From assembly GCF_000025605.1 (NCBI RefSeq), contig NC_013894.1, forward strand, positions 915,529 to 979,528: a DNA stretch of 64,000 nucleotides, given 5' to 3'. This document shows, piece after piece, positions 47,130 through 54,808 of the stretch. Under the pieces are notes generated by a model. The model had not been told where the DNA came from, did no database searches, and saw only the letters and a list, made by a program, of their open reading frames with translations. Numbering within the stretch: position 1 is the first letter of the stretch; the number at the start of each line of letters is the position of its first letter. Source of the DNA: Thermocrinis albus DSM 14484 (GTDB lineage Bacteria > Aquificota > Aquificia > Aquificales > Aquificaceae). The position numbers were made by a program, and so were the translations under genes.

Positions 47130-49138
47130 GATGGAAAGACCACCTGTTACTGTTGACACTGGCTCTTCTCGCCGCGCTTTCTTTTTATACGCTGGCTTTA
47201 CATAAAGGTGAACGACCCGGTGCCATATGGGTTGTTCTTGCTGCTCTTAGCCTATACACTTTGGGTTACAGGTATTACAGCTGGTTTATAGCTTACAGGG
47301 TTCTAGGTGTGGATGACAGTAATCCAACACCCGCTCACAGGTACTACAACGGTGTAGATTATGTTCCCACCAACAGATGGGTACTTTTTGGCCATCACTT
47401 CGCTTCAATATCGGGAGCTGGTCCTCTGGTAGGTCCTGTATTGGCGGCCCAGATGGGTTATCTGCCGAGCGTACTCTGGATACCCATAGGTGCGGTGATA
47501 GCTGGTGCTGTGCAGGATATGACGGTACTCTTTGTTTCTACGCGTATGAAGGGGCGCAGTCTTGGTAGTATAGCCAGAGAGCTCCTGGGTCCTAAGGGAG
47601 GGTTCCTCGTCCTCGTGGTGATATACTCCATTCTCGTACTCCTTTTGGCTGTTTTGGCTCTTGTTGTAGTAAAAGCTCTTGCGGAGAGTCCATGGAGTAG
47701 CTTCTCTACCTTTATGACCATCCCCATAGCTCTCTTAATGGGTATCTACATGTGGTACATAAGACCCGGTGATGTTGTCACCGCTTCTGTCATAGGAGTT
47801 ACCCTGCTACTTCTGTCTCTCGTAGGTGGATACTGGATCTATAAACATCCCCTTCTTTCCCAAATGTTTTACTTTTCTGAAGTGCAGCTCTCTTTTGCCA
47901 TTATGATATACGGCTTCTTTGCCTCTGTCCTTCCCGTATGGCTTCTTTTAGTACCCAGGGACTATCTGAGCACCTTCATGAAGTTGGGAACCGTCATCTT
48001 CTTGGCGCTGGTGGTGATTTTGGTAAATCCCACCGTGAAGATGCCACCTCTCACCCAATACGCCTATACGGGAATAGGTCCCGTTTGGCAAGGTAGTCTG
48101 TTTCCCTTCCTAATGATCACCATAGCGTGTGGTGCTGTATCGGGCTTTCATTCCTTAGTCTCTTCGGGAACAACACCTAAGCTGTTGGACAAGGAAAGTC
48201 ACGTAAGGTTGGTAGGTTATGGTGGTATGTTGGGAGAGTCCTTGGTGGCCACCGTGGCCCTCGTGGCAGCTGTCTCTATGGAACCCGGTCTTTACTTTGC
48301 CATAAACAGCCCGGCCTCCCTCATAGGTAAAACGGTGGAGGAGGCTTCCAAAGTTATAACTTCCTGGGGTTTTCCTATATCTCCTGATTACCTGCGTTAC
48401 GTTACTCAACTGGTAGGAGAAGAGACTATTCTTTCCAGAACGGGTGGTGCTCCTGCCTTTGCACTAGGTATGGCCCTTGTTTTAGCTCGCATCACCGGCG
48501 AACACCTTCTGGCCTTTTGGTATCACTTTGCGGTACTCTTCGAAGCCATATTCATACTGACCACCATAGACGCAGGGACACGCATAGGTAGGTACATACT
48601 TCACGACCTTTTGGGTGTAGCCATACCTTTCTTCAGAGATTACTCCAACAAACTTGGAAACGTCATCACCAGCTTCATAACGGTAAGTCTGTGGGGATAC
48701 CTCCTCTACGCTGGTGTTGTGGATCCTTACGGCGGTATAAGAAGCCTCTGGCCCCTATTCGGTATATCTAACCAACTTCTGGCTACCGTGGCTCTGAGTA
48801 TCGTCACCCTTTACCTAGTTAAGAACAACAGGCATAGGTATGCTTGGGTGACCGGTGTACCCGCTATCCTTATGGCCATCAACACTTTAAGTGCAGGTCT
48901 CATAAAGGTATTTCATCCCAACGAGAAGATAGGCTTTCTTGCCCATGCTACCACCTTAAGGGAAGCTGTTCTGTCAGGTCTTTTACCTCCCGGTATAAAG
49001 TCGGTAAGTGTGGCCCACAGAGTTATCTTTAACGATTATCTCAATGCCTTTCTGGCCTTCTCCTACGTGCTACTGGTAGGTTTGGTGATCCTTTTGATAG
49101 TAAAGCATGTGATCAGATCATGGCCAAGAAGCTCCTGA
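47126..49138 (+). CDS. cstA: Carbon starvation protein A (CstA) family transporter
   Basis: A 670-residue membrane protein with many helices. DDSNPTPAHRYYNGVDYVPTNRWVLFGHHFASISGAGPLVGPVLAAQMGYLPS is the defining CstA stretch, followed by GAVQDM and SGFHSLVSSGTTPK. E. coli members import pyruvate or peptides during starvation. The frame is open to 47087, but the ATG at 47126, overlapping the hydrolase stop, is preferred. Confidence 0.95.
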   Translation: MRWKDHLLLLTLALLAALSFYTLALHKGERPGAIWVVLAALSLYTLGYRYYSWFIAYRVLGVDDSNPTPAHRYYNGVDYVPTNRWVLFGHHFASISGAGPLVGPVLAAQMGYLPSVLWIPIGAVIAGAVQDMTVLFVSTRMKGRSLGSIARELLGPKGGFLVLVVIYSILVLLLAVLALVVVKALAESPWSSFSTFMTIPIALLMGIYMWYIRPGDVVTASVIGVTLLLLSLVGGYWIYKHPLLSQMFYFSEVQLSFAIMIYGFFASVLPVWLLLVPRDYLSTFMKLGTVIFLALVVILVNPTVKMPPLTQYAYTGIGPVWQGSLFPFLMITIACGAVSGFHSLVSSGTTPKLLDKESHVRLVGYGGMLGESLVATVALVAAVSMEPGLYFAINSPASLIGKTVEEASKVITSWGFPISPDYLRYVTQLVGEETILSRTGGAPAFALGMALVLARITGEHLLAFWYHFAVLFEAIFILTTIDAGTRIGRYILHDLLGVAIPFFRDYSNKLGNVITSFITVSLWGYLLYAGVVDPYGGIRSLWPLFGISNQLLATVALSIVTLYLVKNNRHRYAWVTGVPAILMAINTLSAGLIKVFHPNEKIGFLAHATTLREAVLSGLLPPGIKSVSVAHRVIFNDYLNAFLAFSYVLLVGLVILLIVKHVIRSWPRSS

Positions 49139-50481
49139 TCCTCTCTTCCGACAGGTACGTTTTTGCTTTTCTTCTGGAAGGCTTCGATGTGGTGAAGATG
49201 GATATGGAAGATAGGAAAGCTCCTCGGATTTTGGGTAGTATCTTCAAGGGGAAAGTCCTTAGGGTGGTGAAAGGGTTGGAGGGAGCTTTTGTGGACATAG
49301 GTTTGGGAAAGGAGGCCTATCTACCTCTCAAGGACCTACAGGTAAAGGTGGGAGACACTCTCCTTGTGCAGGCGGTGAGGGAGGAGGTGGGACAGAAGGG
49401 GGTGAGACTTACCGACAAGATCAGGATTCCTGGCAAGTACATAGTTTACTTTCCCTCCCTGGGAGAGATAAGGTGCTCTTCAAAACTGGATAAGGAAGGT
49501 AGGTGCAGATGGGTAAGCGTGCTTTCACCTCATCTGGAGGGAGAGGGTGTTATAGTAAGGACGGGATCCGTCTATGCTTCTGAAGAGGAGGTTTTGCAAG
49601 AACTGGCTCAGCTTCGTAACCTTTACCGCGAGCTACAGAATAGGGTGAAGAGGTTAAAAAAGCCCAAGATGGTTCTGGAAGAGTACCCTTGCTATAAGAG
49701 GTTCATAAGGGACCACTGGCACGAGTTGGAGGAGATATACTGTGATGATCCCGTCCTGTGGAACGACATAGCCTCTTTTCTGGACAGTTTTCATCCTCCT
49801 CTCTTAGAACGCAGTGTCTACGTAAGGGATCCCACACCCCTCATAAACAGGTATCACATAAGGGAGCTTTTCAGAAGGCTTTTCAGTAAATACGTTTGGC
49901 TTAAAAGCGGAGGGTACATAGTGATAGAGGAAACGGAAGCTATGACCGTTATAGACGTCAACAGCGGAGAACCTTGTGGAAATTCTCAAGAAGAGAGCGC
50001 GCTGAGAACCAACTTGGAAGCTGCCAAAGAAATAGCAAAACAGGTGATCCTTAGGAACCTTGGAGGAATAATCATCGTGGACTTTATAGACATGAAGAGA
50101 CCGGAAAACAGGGAGGCTGTGACAAAAGCTTTAAAAGAAGCTTTTGGTGAAGATGGTTGTAATGTGCAGTTCTATGGTTTTACCCGCCTCGGTCTTTTTG
50201 AAATGGTACGTAGAAAAACCAAAGAAAGTTTTCCCCACCTCTTATCTTCATCTTGTCCTGTGTGTGGTGGAAGTGGTAGAATAAAGGCAGAAAACCTTTT
50301 CCTCTTTGAGTTGGAGAAGGATCTCAAGTCGGTGGTGGCTTCCAGGATGAGGGTGAGGGTGAGACCTGAGAGGTCTAAGGAAGTGGAGAAACTCCTTGAG
50401 AGGTTAGGTGTAAGGAGCGCAGAGGTAGAAGCTACGGAAGATGTAGATTACAATGATTATGAGGTGGAGTATGAAAAATAG
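49120..50481 (+). CDS. rng: Ribonuclease G/E family endoribonuclease
   Basis: A 453-residue RNase G-type enzyme. An S1 domain lies near the start (GKVLRVVKGLEGAFVDIGLGKEAYLPL). The catalytic metal-binding aspartates are in TVIDVNSGEP and IVDFIDMKRPENR, and SCPVCGGSGR is the zinc link for dimer pairing. There is no long RNase E C-terminal scaffold. It processes rRNA and mRNA 5' ends. It overlaps cstA by 19 bp and the lipoprotein gene by 11 bp. Confidence 0.95.
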   Translation: MAKKLLILSSDRYVFAFLLEGFDVVKMDMEDRKAPRILGSIFKGKVLRVVKGLEGAFVDIGLGKEAYLPLKDLQVKVGDTLLVQAVREEVGQKGVRLTDKIRIPGKYIVYFPSLGEIRCSSKLDKEGRCRWVSVLSPHLEGEGVIVRTGSVYASEEEVLQELAQLRNLYRELQNRVKRLKKPKMVLEEYPCYKRFIRDHWHELEEIYCDDPVLWNDIASFLDSFHPPLLERSVYVRDPTPLINRYHIRELFRRLFSKYVWLKSGGYIVIEETEAMTVIDVNSGEPCGNSQEESALRTNLEAAKEIAKQVILRNLGGIIIVDFIDMKRPENREAVTKALKEAFGEDGCNVQFYGFTRLGLFEMVRRKTKESFPHLLSSSCPVCGGSGRIKAENLFLFELEKDLKSVVASRMRVRVRPERSKEVEKLLERLGVRSAEVEATEDVDYNDYEVEYEK

Positions 50482-51376
50482 GAATCTAATTGGGTTCTTC
50501 TTGCTATTACTTCTGTTGGGGAGTTGTGCCAAAGTTACTGAGGAGAAGCGCGCCAAAATAGCACAGGATCTATACTCGGAGGGTATGGCTGCTTACGCCA
50601 GTAGGGACTACGGAAAGGCCATAGAGAGACTGAAGGAAGCCTTACGCTATCTGGAGAACCTCACACCTTCTCAGATAAAGGATGCCAAGTATGCCATAGC
50701 GGACAGCTACTATATGAAGAAGGACTATGTTAACGCGGTGGTTTACCTTGAGGACTTTGTGGCCAGTTACCCGGGTCTTCCCGAAACGGAGAGAGCTTTT
50801 TACCAGTTGGTGGACAGCTACATGAAGGTGGCACCCGATGCTTACAGAGACCAAAGTTACACCCTAAAGGCTCTCGATAAGGCGAGGGAGTTTCTCAGTA
50901 AGTATCCATCCAGTCCCTACGCTGATAAGGTAGGCGATCTCATACAGCAAGCCGTTGAAAAACTGGCCAAACACCAGTATCTCATAGCACGCTTTTATGA
51001 AGATTACGGTTACTACTACTCTGCAGCCCTACGTTATAGAGACCTTCTCATCAACTACCCCGAACAGATATCGGATGCAGAGGTTTCCTACAGATACATA
51101 AGATCTCTGCTTCTTGTTAGGAAACAAGCTGATAAAAGGAAAGAGTACTACCAAGGTCTCATAGAGGATGCTTACAAGAGCCTTGCCGCCGCGCGATCGG
51201 AAGATGAAAAACGGGCCATAGGGAAGAGGATTAACTTCCTAAAATCCCAAGTGGAAAGATGGGAGAGAATAGCTGATGAGAGTTATAAAGAAGGTATAAA
51301 AGCTCTGCAAAAGTACAGAGAAGTTTACGGAGAAAACAACTATTACAGAGAATTGGAGAAACTCTCTAGAAGATGA
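50471..51376 (+). CDS. BamD-like TPR lipoprotein
   Basis: A 301-residue lipoprotein: signal peptide ending LLLLLLGSC, then TPR-like helices (YSEGMAAYASRDYGKAIERLKEALRYL, YYMKKDYVNAVVYLEDFVASYPGLPETERAFYQLVDSYM, ARFYEDYGYYYSAALRYRDLLINYPEQISDAEVSYRYI). Layout and the DxxYxxAxxxFxxxxxxYP-like repeats follow BamD/YfiO of the outer-membrane assembly machine, with a longer charged C-terminus. The ATG at 50471 after GAGGTGGAGT is chosen over 50453. It could also be a general TPR lipoprotein. Confidence 0.78.
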   Translation: MKNRNLIGFFLLLLLLGSCAKVTEEKRAKIAQDLYSEGMAAYASRDYGKAIERLKEALRYLENLTPSQIKDAKYAIADSYYMKKDYVNAVVYLEDFVASYPGLPETERAFYQLVDSYMKVAPDAYRDQSYTLKALDKAREFLSKYPSSPYADKVGDLIQQAVEKLAKHQYLIARFYEDYGYYYSAALRYRDLLINYPEQISDAEVSYRYIRSLLLVRKQADKRKEYYQGLIEDAYKSLAAARSEDEKRAIGKRINFLKSQVERWERIADESYKEGIKALQKYREVYGENNYYRELEKLSRR

Positions 51377-51705
51377 AGGATCTTCTGTTAAAGATAAAGA
51401 AGCTTTTGGAGGATAAAAAGGCCGAAGACATAGTGATACTGGATGTTTCTTCTTTGACCAATCTGGCTGATTACTTCGTGATAGCTACCGCCAACTCACC
51501 CACTCACGCTCGCGCTTTGGCTGACTACCTTGTGGAAGAGCTTGAGAAGATGGGGATAAGACCCGACCATGTGGAAGGCTTAGATTACGCCAATTGGATT
51601 CTTGTGGATCTTATAGATATAATAGTACACATATTCCAAAAAGAATGGAGAGAATACTATGATCTTGAATGGTTGTACTCCACAGCCAAGAGGTGGGAAG
51701 AATGA
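51373..51705 (+). CDS. rsfS: Ribosomal silencing factor RsfS
   Basis: A 110-residue RsfS (Iojap): DIVILDVSSLTNLADYFVIATANSPTHARALADYL, WILVDLIDIIVHIFQKEWREYYDLEWLY. It binds L14 on the large ribosomal subunit and prevents subunit joining when nutrients are low. It overlaps its neighbours on both sides with ATGA junctions. Confidence 0.95.
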   Translation: MKDLLLKIKKLLEDKKAEDIVILDVSSLTNLADYFVIATANSPTHARALADYLVEELEKMGIRPDHVEGLDYANWILVDLIDIIVHIFQKEWREYYDLEWLYSTAKRWEE

Positions 51706-52817
51706 AGATCCTTAAGCTGATACTCCTATCCCTCCTGATATTAGTATTCTTAGTATTTACTTTACAGAACTCAGGTTTTGTGGAGATATCTTTTTGGGGT
51801 ACAAAAGGCTATGTTCCCCTCTTTCTCTTAGTGCTTTCATCAGTAGCGCTCGGCGTCCTATTACCGGCTCTCTATTTTGTACCTAAGGAGTTTTTCTTAA
51901 GGAGAAAGCTGTCCTCTCTGGAGGACGTGGCAACTGCTATGAAGACCGGTTTTTACCAGAGAGTGCGTAAGATGTCGGAGGGAAAAGGTGGGGCTGCTTA
52001 TACCTTTTTCAAGGCGGAGGCCAGTTACAGAATGGAAGACCTGGATGATCTTGTTACCACAGAGGATCCATACGCTCTGGCCCTTGCGGTGAGACTAGGT
52101 TATCCTGACAGAGCGATAGACAAACTTTCTGCCTTCCTGGAGGGAGAGACAAAAGACCTCAACCTCCTCAAAGCGTGCAGGGACGCTTTTTTTTCGTTGG
52201 GAGATATAGAGAAGGCAGTAGAGGCTCAGAAAAGGGTAGTAGGCCTATGTGAGAGATGGGAGAAGGATCGTCAGAGAGCTATTTTGGCAGAGCTTATGGC
52301 TCTGCAGGCTTTAAACACCAATTCCCTCTCTCTTGCAGAGAAGGCTGTTGATACCTACAGGACACCCTACAGTATGGCGGTTTTACTACGGCTCCTTTCC
52401 CAATCAGAAAGAACCAAAGACCTCAGAAAAACCTTCGATAAGGTGTTGGAGCTGGGTTTTCAAAATGATGTTCTTTTTATGGTGATGGAAGACGAAAAGA
52501 CATTGATAAAACTTATGGATGTTTTGAGGGAGGAGTTGGAGGCTTTGGATCCCAACGTTGCCGCTCTATTGTTCCTCAAGCTCAACATGCCCTCTCACGT
52601 CGAGAAAGTGAAGGATAAACTGAATCCTACCGTTTCGTTGCTGGCGGATACCTACTTCTCTCACAGAGAACAGGAAAGAAAGTGTGCCACCATACTGCAG
52701 GAGCTTTACACACCGTGGGTCTGTGTCTGTGGGAGGGCTTACAGGAGATACAGTCTCATGTGTTCCTCCTGTGGCCGTTGGCTGAAAATAAGATACGTAG
52801 GTGGGTATAATAGGTAA
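51702..52817 (+). CDS. LapA-LapB fusion-like protein: two TM helices, TPR-like middle, zinc-ribbon end
   Basis: A 371-residue protein. The N-terminus has a LapA (DUF1049) look: one helix (ILLSLLILVFLVFTL), then QNSGFVEISFWG, then a second helix (VPLFLLVLSSVALGVLLPALYF). Residues ~90-330 are helical repeats resembling TPRs. The C-terminus has CVCG (Cys341, 343) and CSSCGRW (Cys354, 357), like the rubredoxin-type zinc domain of LapB. In E. coli lapA and lapB are separate neighbours that tune LpxC turnover and LPS assembly; here both sets of parts are in one chain. The start at 51702 overlaps the rsfS stop. Confidence 0.77.
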   Translation: MKILKLILLSLLILVFLVFTLQNSGFVEISFWGTKGYVPLFLLVLSSVALGVLLPALYFVPKEFFLRRKLSSLEDVATAMKTGFYQRVRKMSEGKGGAAYTFFKAEASYRMEDLDDLVTTEDPYALALAVRLGYPDRAIDKLSAFLEGETKDLNLLKACRDAFFSLGDIEKAVEAQKRVVGLCERWEKDRQRAILAELMALQALNTNSLSLAEKAVDTYRTPYSMAVLLRLLSQSERTKDLRKTFDKVLELGFQNDVLFMVMEDEKTLIKLMDVLREELEALDPNVAALLFLKLNMPSHVEKVKDKLNPTVSLLADTYFSHREQERKCATILQELYTPWVCVCGRAYRRYSLMCSSCGRWLKIRYVGGYNR

Positions 52818-52829
52818 AGGGGGTAAAGG

Positions 52830-53402
52830 ATGTTGATAGATACCGAAAGGGGGATCGTAAGACTTAAGGTAGTGTACTACGGACCTGCTATGTCTGGGAA
52901 AACCACCAACCTGGAAAAACTGGCTTCTCTGGAAGGTCTTTCTATGACCAAGATAGACACAGCCGGGGAGAGAACGCTGGTTTTTGATTTCGCCACCAAA
53001 AAGGTGCCCTTAGGCAAGCTGAATGTGTCCTTCGCTCTCTATACGGTGCCAGGACAAGATATATACAGAGATATGAGACTCACTGTGCTCAAAGGTGTAG
53101 ACGGACTGGTGTTTGTGGCGGACTCCAGCGCCAAAAGACTGGAGGAAAACAAAAGGTTTTTGGAGCTCCTCAGGATGGACCTACCGAGGGTAGGAAAAAC
53201 TTACGGACAGGTTCCTATTGTCATTCAGTACAACAAGATGGATCTTCCGGACGCGCTGGATTACTACCTGTTGGAGAGGGAACTTAACGTAGATAGATGG
53301 TCTTCTGTGTGTGCTTCCGCCATAAGGGGGGAAGGTGTCAGAGAGACTTTTGATCTTCTGGAAGGACTGCTTTTGGCCAGACTGGAAAGATTGATGGGAT
53401 GA
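52830..53402 (+). CDS. MglA-family small GTPase
   Basis: A 190-residue bacterial Ras-like GTPase. G1 is GPAMSGKTTN (residues 18-27), TLVFDF matches the MglA-type switch, G3 is TVPGQ instead of DxxG, and G4 is NKMD. MglA sets cell polarity and type IV pilus activity in Myxococcus and Thermus, normally with the GAP MglB. No Roadblock/MglB gene is next door; the downstream gene overlaps by 4 bp and is the likely partner. AAGGGGGTAAAGG precedes the ATG. Confidence 0.9.
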   Translation: MLIDTERGIVRLKVVYYGPAMSGKTTNLEKLASLEGLSMTKIDTAGERTLVFDFATKKVPLGKLNVSFALYTVPGQDIYRDMRLTVLKGVDGLVFVADSSAKRLEENKRFLELLRMDLPRVGKTYGQVPIVIQYNKMDLPDALDYYLLERELNVDRWSSVCASAIRGEGVRETFDLLEGLLLARLERLMG

Positions 53403-54808
53403 TATCCGGATATATAAGTTCTCGTCAAGATCTGGTGGATCTGGTAAATGGTTGCCTTCTGGGAAAGAATGGTACGTTAGATCTTTTTATGGGAGGAAGA
53501 TACATATCCCTTCGCTTGGAGATGGGGAACATAACCGCCTTCTGGGATCAAGAGATACAGCAACTCTTTCCCGAAGAATCAAGACCTTCTTCCCTTCTTC
53601 TGTACCGTCTTCTAGAGATGCTGGAAGACCCTCAAGGCTTTTTTACCTTCAGGGAAGAAACCTCTTCTACCTGGACACCTTTGGAGAGACCTATTTCGGT
53701 AGATGAGCTAGTCCTTCAGCTACAGGCTCTGAGAGAGGAGTTTAAAGCCCTAATGCAGATAGTGATGACACCTCTCGCTGTAGTGAAGGTGGATAAACCT
53801 TTTGAGGATATGAACCGTTACGAAGGTAGGAGTGTACTTCACATACTTCTGACATCTCATACAGACCTACTCAGTGGTATAAGAAAACTCAGGGAGCTCT
53901 TTGGGGGAGGATATCTGGACATACACCAGTTTTACAGCCCCGAAGTAGAAAGCTCTTCGCCCCATCTGGAGTATGTTCTTAAGGACGTGGAGGTGAGTAA
54001 AGTCAACCTCTTTACCCTTATGGAGAGTTTGAGACTCAGTAAGTTCAGTGGACTGCTCATTATGAGATCTTCTGACGGGGAGTACAACCTCTACTACAGA
54101 AAGGGAAAACCGGTGGCTCTGTATCCTTACTCGTCAGACCTGATGGAGGTGTTACTGAATCCTGACGGAGAGATGAGGATCACCGTTATAGGTATGGAGG
54201 ATTCTATCCTGGAGATATTCATGTTGAGAGAGGTTCAGGATCCTTTGGTGAAGGGTTTAGAGGATGAGTTGGTGGAGTTGGGAAAGGTTTTTATGGGAAT
54301 GAGCAGAAAGGGTTATACAGGTCTCGTGGTGGTCCATTCCGCCGGGAAGAAGTACTATAACCTGTACAGAAAGGGGACGTTAACGGGCGTACTAGTGGAG
54401 GAGGGTGGTGTGCTAAGTTGGTCACACGCCCCTCTGTACTCAAGACCCTTTTGGGTAGAGATAGTACAGTACCAGTCTGTGGAGAATCTATTCTTTGTGG
54501 TACACCTCTTCCTTATAAATCTTCTGTACGGGGTTCTCCTCAGGAGAGGGCCAGCTCTGAGTCAAACCATACTGACACACCTCGCCTCCTCAGATCTTCT
54601 GATGCATCGCGAGGGAAACATCCTTTACAGACGTGCTCCGAAAGAGGAGGAAAAGGAGGTGGCGGGGTTCCTTACCTTTCTGCTGGAGTTGGGCCACAGG
54701 GTACTGGGGCAGGAACGTTTGGAGGAAGAACTGGAGGTCTCCCTACGTCCTTATAGGGATGTTCTGAAACTTCTCGATGTAGAGGAGTACTTAAGATTGG
54801 TAAAATGA
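53399..54808 (+). CDS. DUF4388/PATAN-like repeat protein, likely partner of the MglA GTPase
   Basis: A 469-residue soluble protein that I cannot name with certainty. Three stretches share a pattern of hydrophobic strand, then (Y)(N)LY(Y)RKG, then a short strand: residues ~26-49 (TLDLFMGGRYISLRLEMGNI), ~204-245 (GLLIMRSSDGEYNLYYRKGK) and ~292-340 (GLVVVHSAGKKYYNLYRKGT). This is the style of DUF4388/PATAN domains, which are often encoded beside MglA and Roadblock proteins. The middle and C-terminal parts are helical. It overlaps the GTPase gene (ATGA), so the two are made together. Confidence 0.62.
   Translation: MISGYISSRQDLVDLVNGCLLGKNGTLDLFMGGRYISLRLEMGNITAFWDQEIQQLFPEESRPSSLLLYRLLEMLEDPQGFFTFREETSSTWTPLERPISVDELVLQLQALREEFKALMQIVMTPLAVVKVDKPFEDMNRYEGRSVLHILLTSHTDLLSGIRKLRELFGGGYLDIHQFYSPEVESSSPHLEYVLKDVEVSKVNLFTLMESLRLSKFSGLLIMRSSDGEYNLYYRKGKPVALYPYSSDLMEVLLNPDGEMRITVIGMEDSILEIFMLREVQDPLVKGLEDELVELGKVFMGMSRKGYTGLVVVHSAGKKYYNLYRKGTLTGVLVEEGGVLSWSHAPLYSRPFWVEIVQYQSVENLFFVVHLFLINLLYGVLLRRGPALSQTILTHLASSDLLMHREGNILYRRAPKEEEKEVAGFLTFLLELGHRVLGQERLEEELEVSLRPYRDVLKLLDVEEYLRLVK

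Follow-up and report, generated by a model that had tools for sequence, protein, structure and literature searches.

An MglA-type GTPase gene overlapping the gene for a three-module DUF4388/PATAN-like partner, with no Roadblock gene alongside, in the Aquificaceae

Organization of the mglA-partner locus

The window, i.e., the whole 64,000-nucleotide stretch of DNA analyzed here, occupies positions 915529-979528 of a genome assembled as one contig (G000; 1,500,577 bases). It carries two open reading frames (ORFs) on the + strand, 52830-53402 (190 aa) and 53399-54808 (469 aa), which have an ATGA sequence in common. The features of the pair and of the genes upstream of it are as follows:

49120-51705, + strand: conserved upstream operon genes, namely RNase G (rng, 49120-50481), a bamD-like lipoprotein (50453-51376), and rsfS (51373-51705)
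51669-52817, + strand: conserved upstream neighbor, a LapA-domain and TPR-like protein with a C-terminal zinc-ribbon-like motif
52830-53402, + strand: mglA (type A), Group 1 MglA small GTPase, 190 aa, assigned by Pfam, PDB match, tree, and motifs
52881-52904, + strand: G1/P-loop GPAMSGKT, aa 18-25 of MglA-A
52971-52991, + strand: arginine finger R48, G2 threonine T49, and beta2 strand (RTLVFDF), with V51 at the position of the MglB-contacting Phe56 of M. xanthus MglA
53043-53057, + strand: G3 motif TVPGQ, the Group 1 signature
53232-53243, + strand: G4 motif NKMD
53399-54808, + strand: tri-PATAN partner with three DUF4388-like modules, 469 aa, its start codon overlapping the mglA stop codon (ATGA)
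53399-53662, + strand: PATAN/DUF4388-like module 1, aa 1-88
53699-53929, + strand: aa 101-177, a long helix with a winged-helix-like segment of the kind seen in single-PATAN DUF4388 proteins
53966-54232, + strand: PATAN/DUF4388-like module 2, aa 190-278, best Pfam stretch 200-242
54278-54541, + strand: PATAN/DUF4388-like module 3, aa 294-381
54551-54805, + strand: C-terminal tail, mostly helical, aa 385-469, with conserved G437, E444, E446, and P451

The first-pass annotation had read this locus as an MglA GTPase coupled to a three-repeat DUF4388/PATAN-like protein, with no Roadblock gene next door. Both parts were borne out, the first by the ATGA overlap together with Pfam, profile, and PDB matches, and the second by the ORFs beside the pair, none of which is a Roadblock gene (those of the genome lie elsewhere).

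The type A GTPase

The 190-aa GTPase matches the Pfam Arf family (2e-12), its best PDB sequence match is the T. thermophilus MglA structure 3t12 (2.2e-34), and its closest solved relatives are the MglA proteins of T. thermophilus and M. xanthus. Judged from its motifs, it is a Group 1 MglA sensu Wuichet and Sogaard-Andersen 2014 (PMC4316618). The G1 motif of the window protein (GPAMSGKT) follows the Group 1 pattern GxxxxGK[T/S], with GKT present in 37/37 members of the A clade; G3 is TVPGQ in the window protein and TVPGQ, TIPGQ, TTPGQ, or AVPGQ across the clade; and G4 is NKMD, with the N, K, and D of the [NT]KxD pattern found in all 37 members. The GTP-binding motifs of the A-type GTPases are thus intact, and an intrinsic arginine finger, R48, stands beside the G2 threonine in the window protein (ERTLVFDF). 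The G1-G2 insertion region of these GTPases is alignable throughout, yet it is four residues shorter than in other Group 1 members.

A tree of 135 GTPases, built with a quick method, set the A-type GTPases apart as a single clade (SH-aLRT 99) alongside the remaining Group 1 MglAs. Outside this clade fell types B and C, which belong to the same family and are coupled to Roadblock; the GTPase of a named Aquificaceae genome (L090) fell inside it. The neighboring lineages being Roadblock-coupled, the absence of Roadblock from the A-type operon would most simply be explained by loss of the gene.

The tri-PATAN partner

The 469-aa partner matches Pfam DUF4388 at 32.2 bits (cut-off 25; E 1.2e-7), and 18 of 19 partner homologues match the same family at E 0.01 or better. 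Profile comparison with single-PATAN DUF4388 proteins gave three separate, non-overlapping stretches similar to DUF4388, around aa 11-88, 197-253, and 295-335, with modules 1 and 3 matching weakly. The alignment of module 1 extends into the winged-helix-like part that comes after PATAN in the single-PATAN proteins, and modules 2 and 3 resemble one another (hhalign 92%, E 6e-7). The same strand-helix order occurs three times in the predicted model of the full-length protein, which is of modest confidence (mean pLDDT 63), while the N-terminal 181 residues, comprising module 1 and the winged helix, are predicted well (pLDDT 85, pTM 0.79). The repeats had also been described as centered on LYxRKG; profiles and model uphold the three modules, but a motif of this type occurs in modules 2 and 3 only, module 1 having the divergent equivalent LRLEMG.

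Sequence comparison of the partner with the PDB returned no match up to E 1. Fold searches with the full-length and N-terminal models gave no reliable match (the best, E 3.8e-3, was to sliding clamps at TM 0.1), and the best VIA-align Z of 5.1 for these models is within background. No Roadblock fold that would point to mimicry appeared in the match lists of these searches, and no receiver domain was found in the protein.

Conservation of the pair

Across 121 genomes of the phylum, the partner was found in 46, all belonging to the family of the window genome, Aquificaceae (46 of 56 family genomes), and neither it nor the pair was found in the other families surveyed. In all 36 loci read in detail, spanning 10 Aquificaceae genera, a GTPase gene lies directly upstream of the partner on the same strand, separated by -4 bp (ATGA) in most and otherwise by 0, +1, or up to +9 bp. 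Given this adjacency and the narrow range of gaps, the pair is not a product of chance. The five genomes of genus g5 lack both genes, as do two g2 genomes. Such co-inheritance, together with the apparent translational coupling, is good evidence that the two genes form one functional unit, though it would not by itself prove binding.

As comparators, 80 MglA loci were collected by profile search of genome contigs, almost all from other phyla (one, L090, is itself A-type). Scanning 4 kb around each gene with home-made profiles, on contigs some of which end near the gene, we noted a Roadblock ORF in 60 loci, a DUF4388 ORF in 23, and both in 20. PATAN proteins are recurrent companions of MglA, normally together with Roadblock.

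Roadblock genes elsewhere in the genome

Of the Roadblock matches listed for the window and for the family genomes surveyed, none lies near the mglA-partner pair, a coupled mglB being one within four genes. The window genome does contain two Roadblock genes, each in an operon with another GTPase: one (C1:467200) in a Roadblock-DUF4388-GTPase operon and the other (C1:1068190; Pfam 4.4e-4, below the cut-off) in a Roadblock-GTPase-DUF4388/HEAT operon. Neither is free, and the genome yielded no free MglB. The claim that MglB is missing therefore stands on three observations, i.e., that none is adjacent, that none is free elsewhere in the genome to accompany this mglA, and that the MglB-responsive region of the GTPase has diverged (see below).

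A T-operon or C-operon Roadblock could instead serve MglA-A in trans, in which case this would be a usual MglA-MglB-PATAN system whose mglB lies at a distance. Pfam gives one or more Roadblock matches in every genome that carries the pair, G000 having its two genes, and the MglB-contacting positions F57 and F59 are mostly kept in the A clade. Each Roadblock of the window genome, however, adjoins a GTPase of its own, and the T-type GTPase is of a different class, with Thr at the arginine position and GTPGQ. In the ~99%-complete genomes G016 and G020, the Roadblock profile found only the T-type Roadblock, and Pfam lists a second match in G016. Considering also the changes in the switch that are described in the next section, we regard service in trans as rather unlikely.

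The other GTPase operons deserve a brief description. The second (L009:6418-8646, - strand; G000:C1:1066417-1068645) encodes a Roadblock protein of 152 aa, which falls below Pfam's cut-off, an MglA-like GTPase of 179 aa, and a DUF4388, zinc-ribbon, and HEAT protein of 420 aa. Beside it (L009:8718-11690) lie tandemly duplicated genes for small secreted proteins, in which a ~122-aa protein occurs twice, alternating with three copies of another family, and in a relative (L083), an EAL/GGDEF protein follows the second-type operon. The third operon (L010:5186-6786) has the order Roadblock-DUF4388-GTPase, its GTPase carrying GTPGQ and Thr at the arginine position, and matches of this type to Roadblock and DUF4388 turn up in three or more families of the phylum. 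Many relatives have a further operon (L053, L055, L057, L058, L060, L062, and L063), in which the genes for a Roadblock protein and an MglA-like GTPase are joined by those for a ~380-aa protein and for a membrane protein with Tll0287/HAMP; the ~380-aa protein has no Pfam match and is weakly like the tri-PATAN protein in some of these loci. This arrangement was not found in the window genome.

An altered MglB-responsive site

In the known systems, MglB contacts beta2 of MglA (Phe56, 57, and 59) and repositions Arg53, while the C-terminal helix of MglB docks close to the beta2-beta3 loop (PMC6785124, PMC6876712). We compared this region in 37 A members with that of 96 further GTPases of MglA type, of which 79 belong to other phyla, 6 to the sister family, and 11 to types B and C. 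Counting from the P-loop lysine up to the arginine finger, there are 25 residues in 37/37 A members and 28 to 31 in the comparators (29 in 75/79 of those from other phyla), the arginine-finger loop of the A clade being four residues shorter throughout. The equivalent of M. xanthus Phe56 is valine (V51) in 37/37 A members and aromatic in 96/96 comparators. The arginine finger, present in all 96 comparators, is replaced by lysine (R48K) in 12 of the 37 (G007, G009, G019, G020, G023, G032, G039, G048, G058, G065, G101, and G104), with about six changes of state on the A tree, at least four of them forced; most A-type GTPases, including that of the window, retain the arginine. A screen for fixed differences between the A clade and 83 Group 1 proteins returned five internal substitutions, of which three fall at residues 37, 51, and 56, and a one-residue deletion in the beta2-beta3 loop.

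The shortened loop and V51, both invariant in the clade, argue against a Roadblock protein acting in trans, and the diverged region supports a module that may be independent of MglB. V51 alone does not prove a loss of MglB binding, since the Roadblock-coupled B-type GTPases also vary at the MglB interface (F57V, F59M).

Could the partner be a GAP?

The first-pass annotation left it open whether the repeat protein takes the place of MglB as GAP or as effector. As a GAP, it would order switch 1 or give a catalytic residue in trans, turning MglA-A off. Where relatives have Roadblock in the operon, this protein is the invariable partner, lysine has replaced the intrinsic finger in 12 of 37 clade members through recurrent changes, and the partner itself has an arginine, Arg162, that is invariant among homologues. 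We know of no PATAN protein that acts as a GAP, however, and the co-occurrence of PATAN and Roadblock genes in other phyla (20/80 loci) suggests that the two have different jobs. Nor does the partner offer a convincing compensating arginine; the differences that go with R48K GTPases are confounded with lineage, position 443 among them, and this candidate was rejected. An effector or adaptor role fits better, and we consider a GAP role improbable. Equally improbable is the fuller scenario in which this MglA lineage has abandoned Roadblock-type GAP control altogether, with the three-PATAN partner gating the cycle and possibly completing catalysis in trans where the finger is lysine.

Genomic context and the pilus

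The best-conserved neighbors of the pair are rng, the bamD-like gene, rsfS, and the lapA/TPR gene, and the order rng-bamD-rsfS-lapA/TPR-mglA-partner is kept in seven genera (g1, to which the window belongs, g2, g3, g4, g6, g7, and g8), with lapA/TPR present in g9 as well. The LapA-domain protein (51669-52817) resembles a LapA-LapB fusion and is encoded directly upstream of mglA in most genera. An OmpR regulator and a histidine kinase lie downstream of the pair in g1 (outside the window genome), g2, g3, and g4.

The module might accordingly serve envelope biogenesis, not pili, either with the LapA/TPR and bamD-like products or under the downstream two-component system; this is compatible with an effector role for the partner. 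The conserved order, the downstream regulators, and a pilT proximity that is not conserved (see below) all lend it weight. Bacterial operons often mix functions, however, and rng and rsfS are housekeeping genes; in G015 the lapA/TPR block is missing beside the pair; and in the window genome the downstream response regulator has its closest relative (69% identical) at another site, for which reason the two-component system was rejected as an obligate part. We regard an output in envelope biogenesis as rather unlikely.

Steering of a nearby pilus system had also been proposed, but the genomic link to it is weak. In the window, pilT lies 8 kb from the pair, in two g8 genomes 2-3 kb, and in most others compared far away, so that a close pilT is seen only in G000, G042, and G056 among these genomes and recurs only in g8. 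PilT is present in 61/61 family genomes, including those of g5, which lack the pair. We therefore rejected pilT linkage as functional evidence. The case for pilus control therefore comes by analogy, from PATAN regulators known to bind PilB, and not from gene proximity: a PATAN domain of the cyanobacterium Synechocystis is reported to contact this pilus motor (PMC7690835, PMC10519157). The type IV pilus as a target of the module is speculative.

A proposed mode of action

The mechanism that we find most likely, and consider somewhat probable, is that the tri-PATAN protein serves, in a GTP-dependent way, as effector or adaptor of an MglA that has left Roadblock control; direct binding between MglA-A and its partner, the effector role, and the loss of MglB regulation are inferred. 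MglA-A would cycle between GTP and GDP, and the tri-PATAN protein, made from the same message, would bind it as a dedicated effector or adaptor, its PATAN modules passing the GTP signal to a cell-envelope or surface machine, a candidate being the type IV pilus motor. Most relatives have an adjacent Roadblock gene; along the stem leading to the A clade of the Aquificaceae, this gene would have been lost from the operon, after which the GTPase may have drifted from MglB regulation.

In known MglA regulation, a Roadblock protein repositions an arginine already in the switch. The A clade offers a natural experiment on MglA without Roadblock, with the switch kept, the contact altered, and the arginine repeatedly lost. 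PATAN domains may be general outputs of bacterial small GTPases, and the two genes, small and thermophile-derived, are directly testable.

Comparison with known systems

MglA-PATAN neighborhoods are already known: PATAN genes occur occasionally near Group 1 and 5 MglAs, and 59 of 449 MglAs are orphans (Wuichet and Sogaard-Andersen 2014, PMC4316618). Our literature search returned no paper treating both MglA and DUF4388, and a single one that mentions DUF4388. New here are a three-PATAN arrangement free of Roadblock and the changes at the MglB-responsive site.

With the MglA-MglB polarity module of M. xanthus and T. thermophilus, the A-type system shares the Group 1 TVPGQ, NKxD, and the arginine-finger position, along with the 2.2e-34 match to 3t12; it differs in an operon without MglB, the arginine loop four residues shorter, Val at Phe56, lysine for arginine in a third of the clade, and a dedicated tri-PATAN partner. 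Orphan MglAs, such as SofG of M. xanthus and MglA of Bdellovibrio, likewise have no coupled MglB gene, but the A-type switch has a constant, translationally coupled PATAN partner. Even the other-phyla comparators without a nearby Roadblock all keep Arg48 and an aromatic residue at 51, in contrast to the A clade. The Roadblock-MglA-DUF4388 operons of Roseiflexus and Herpetosiphonaceae (L100, L123) also have a same-strand DUF4388/PATAN gene directly downstream of MglA; they include an upstream Roadblock and a single-PATAN protein of ~267 aa, whereas the window pair has no Roadblock and three PATAN-like modules. Finally, the PATAN-CheY response regulators (PixE, PixG, and the PatA family) share the PATAN domain, but no receiver domain was found in the tri-PATAN protein, and control would run via a small GTPase, not phosphorylation.
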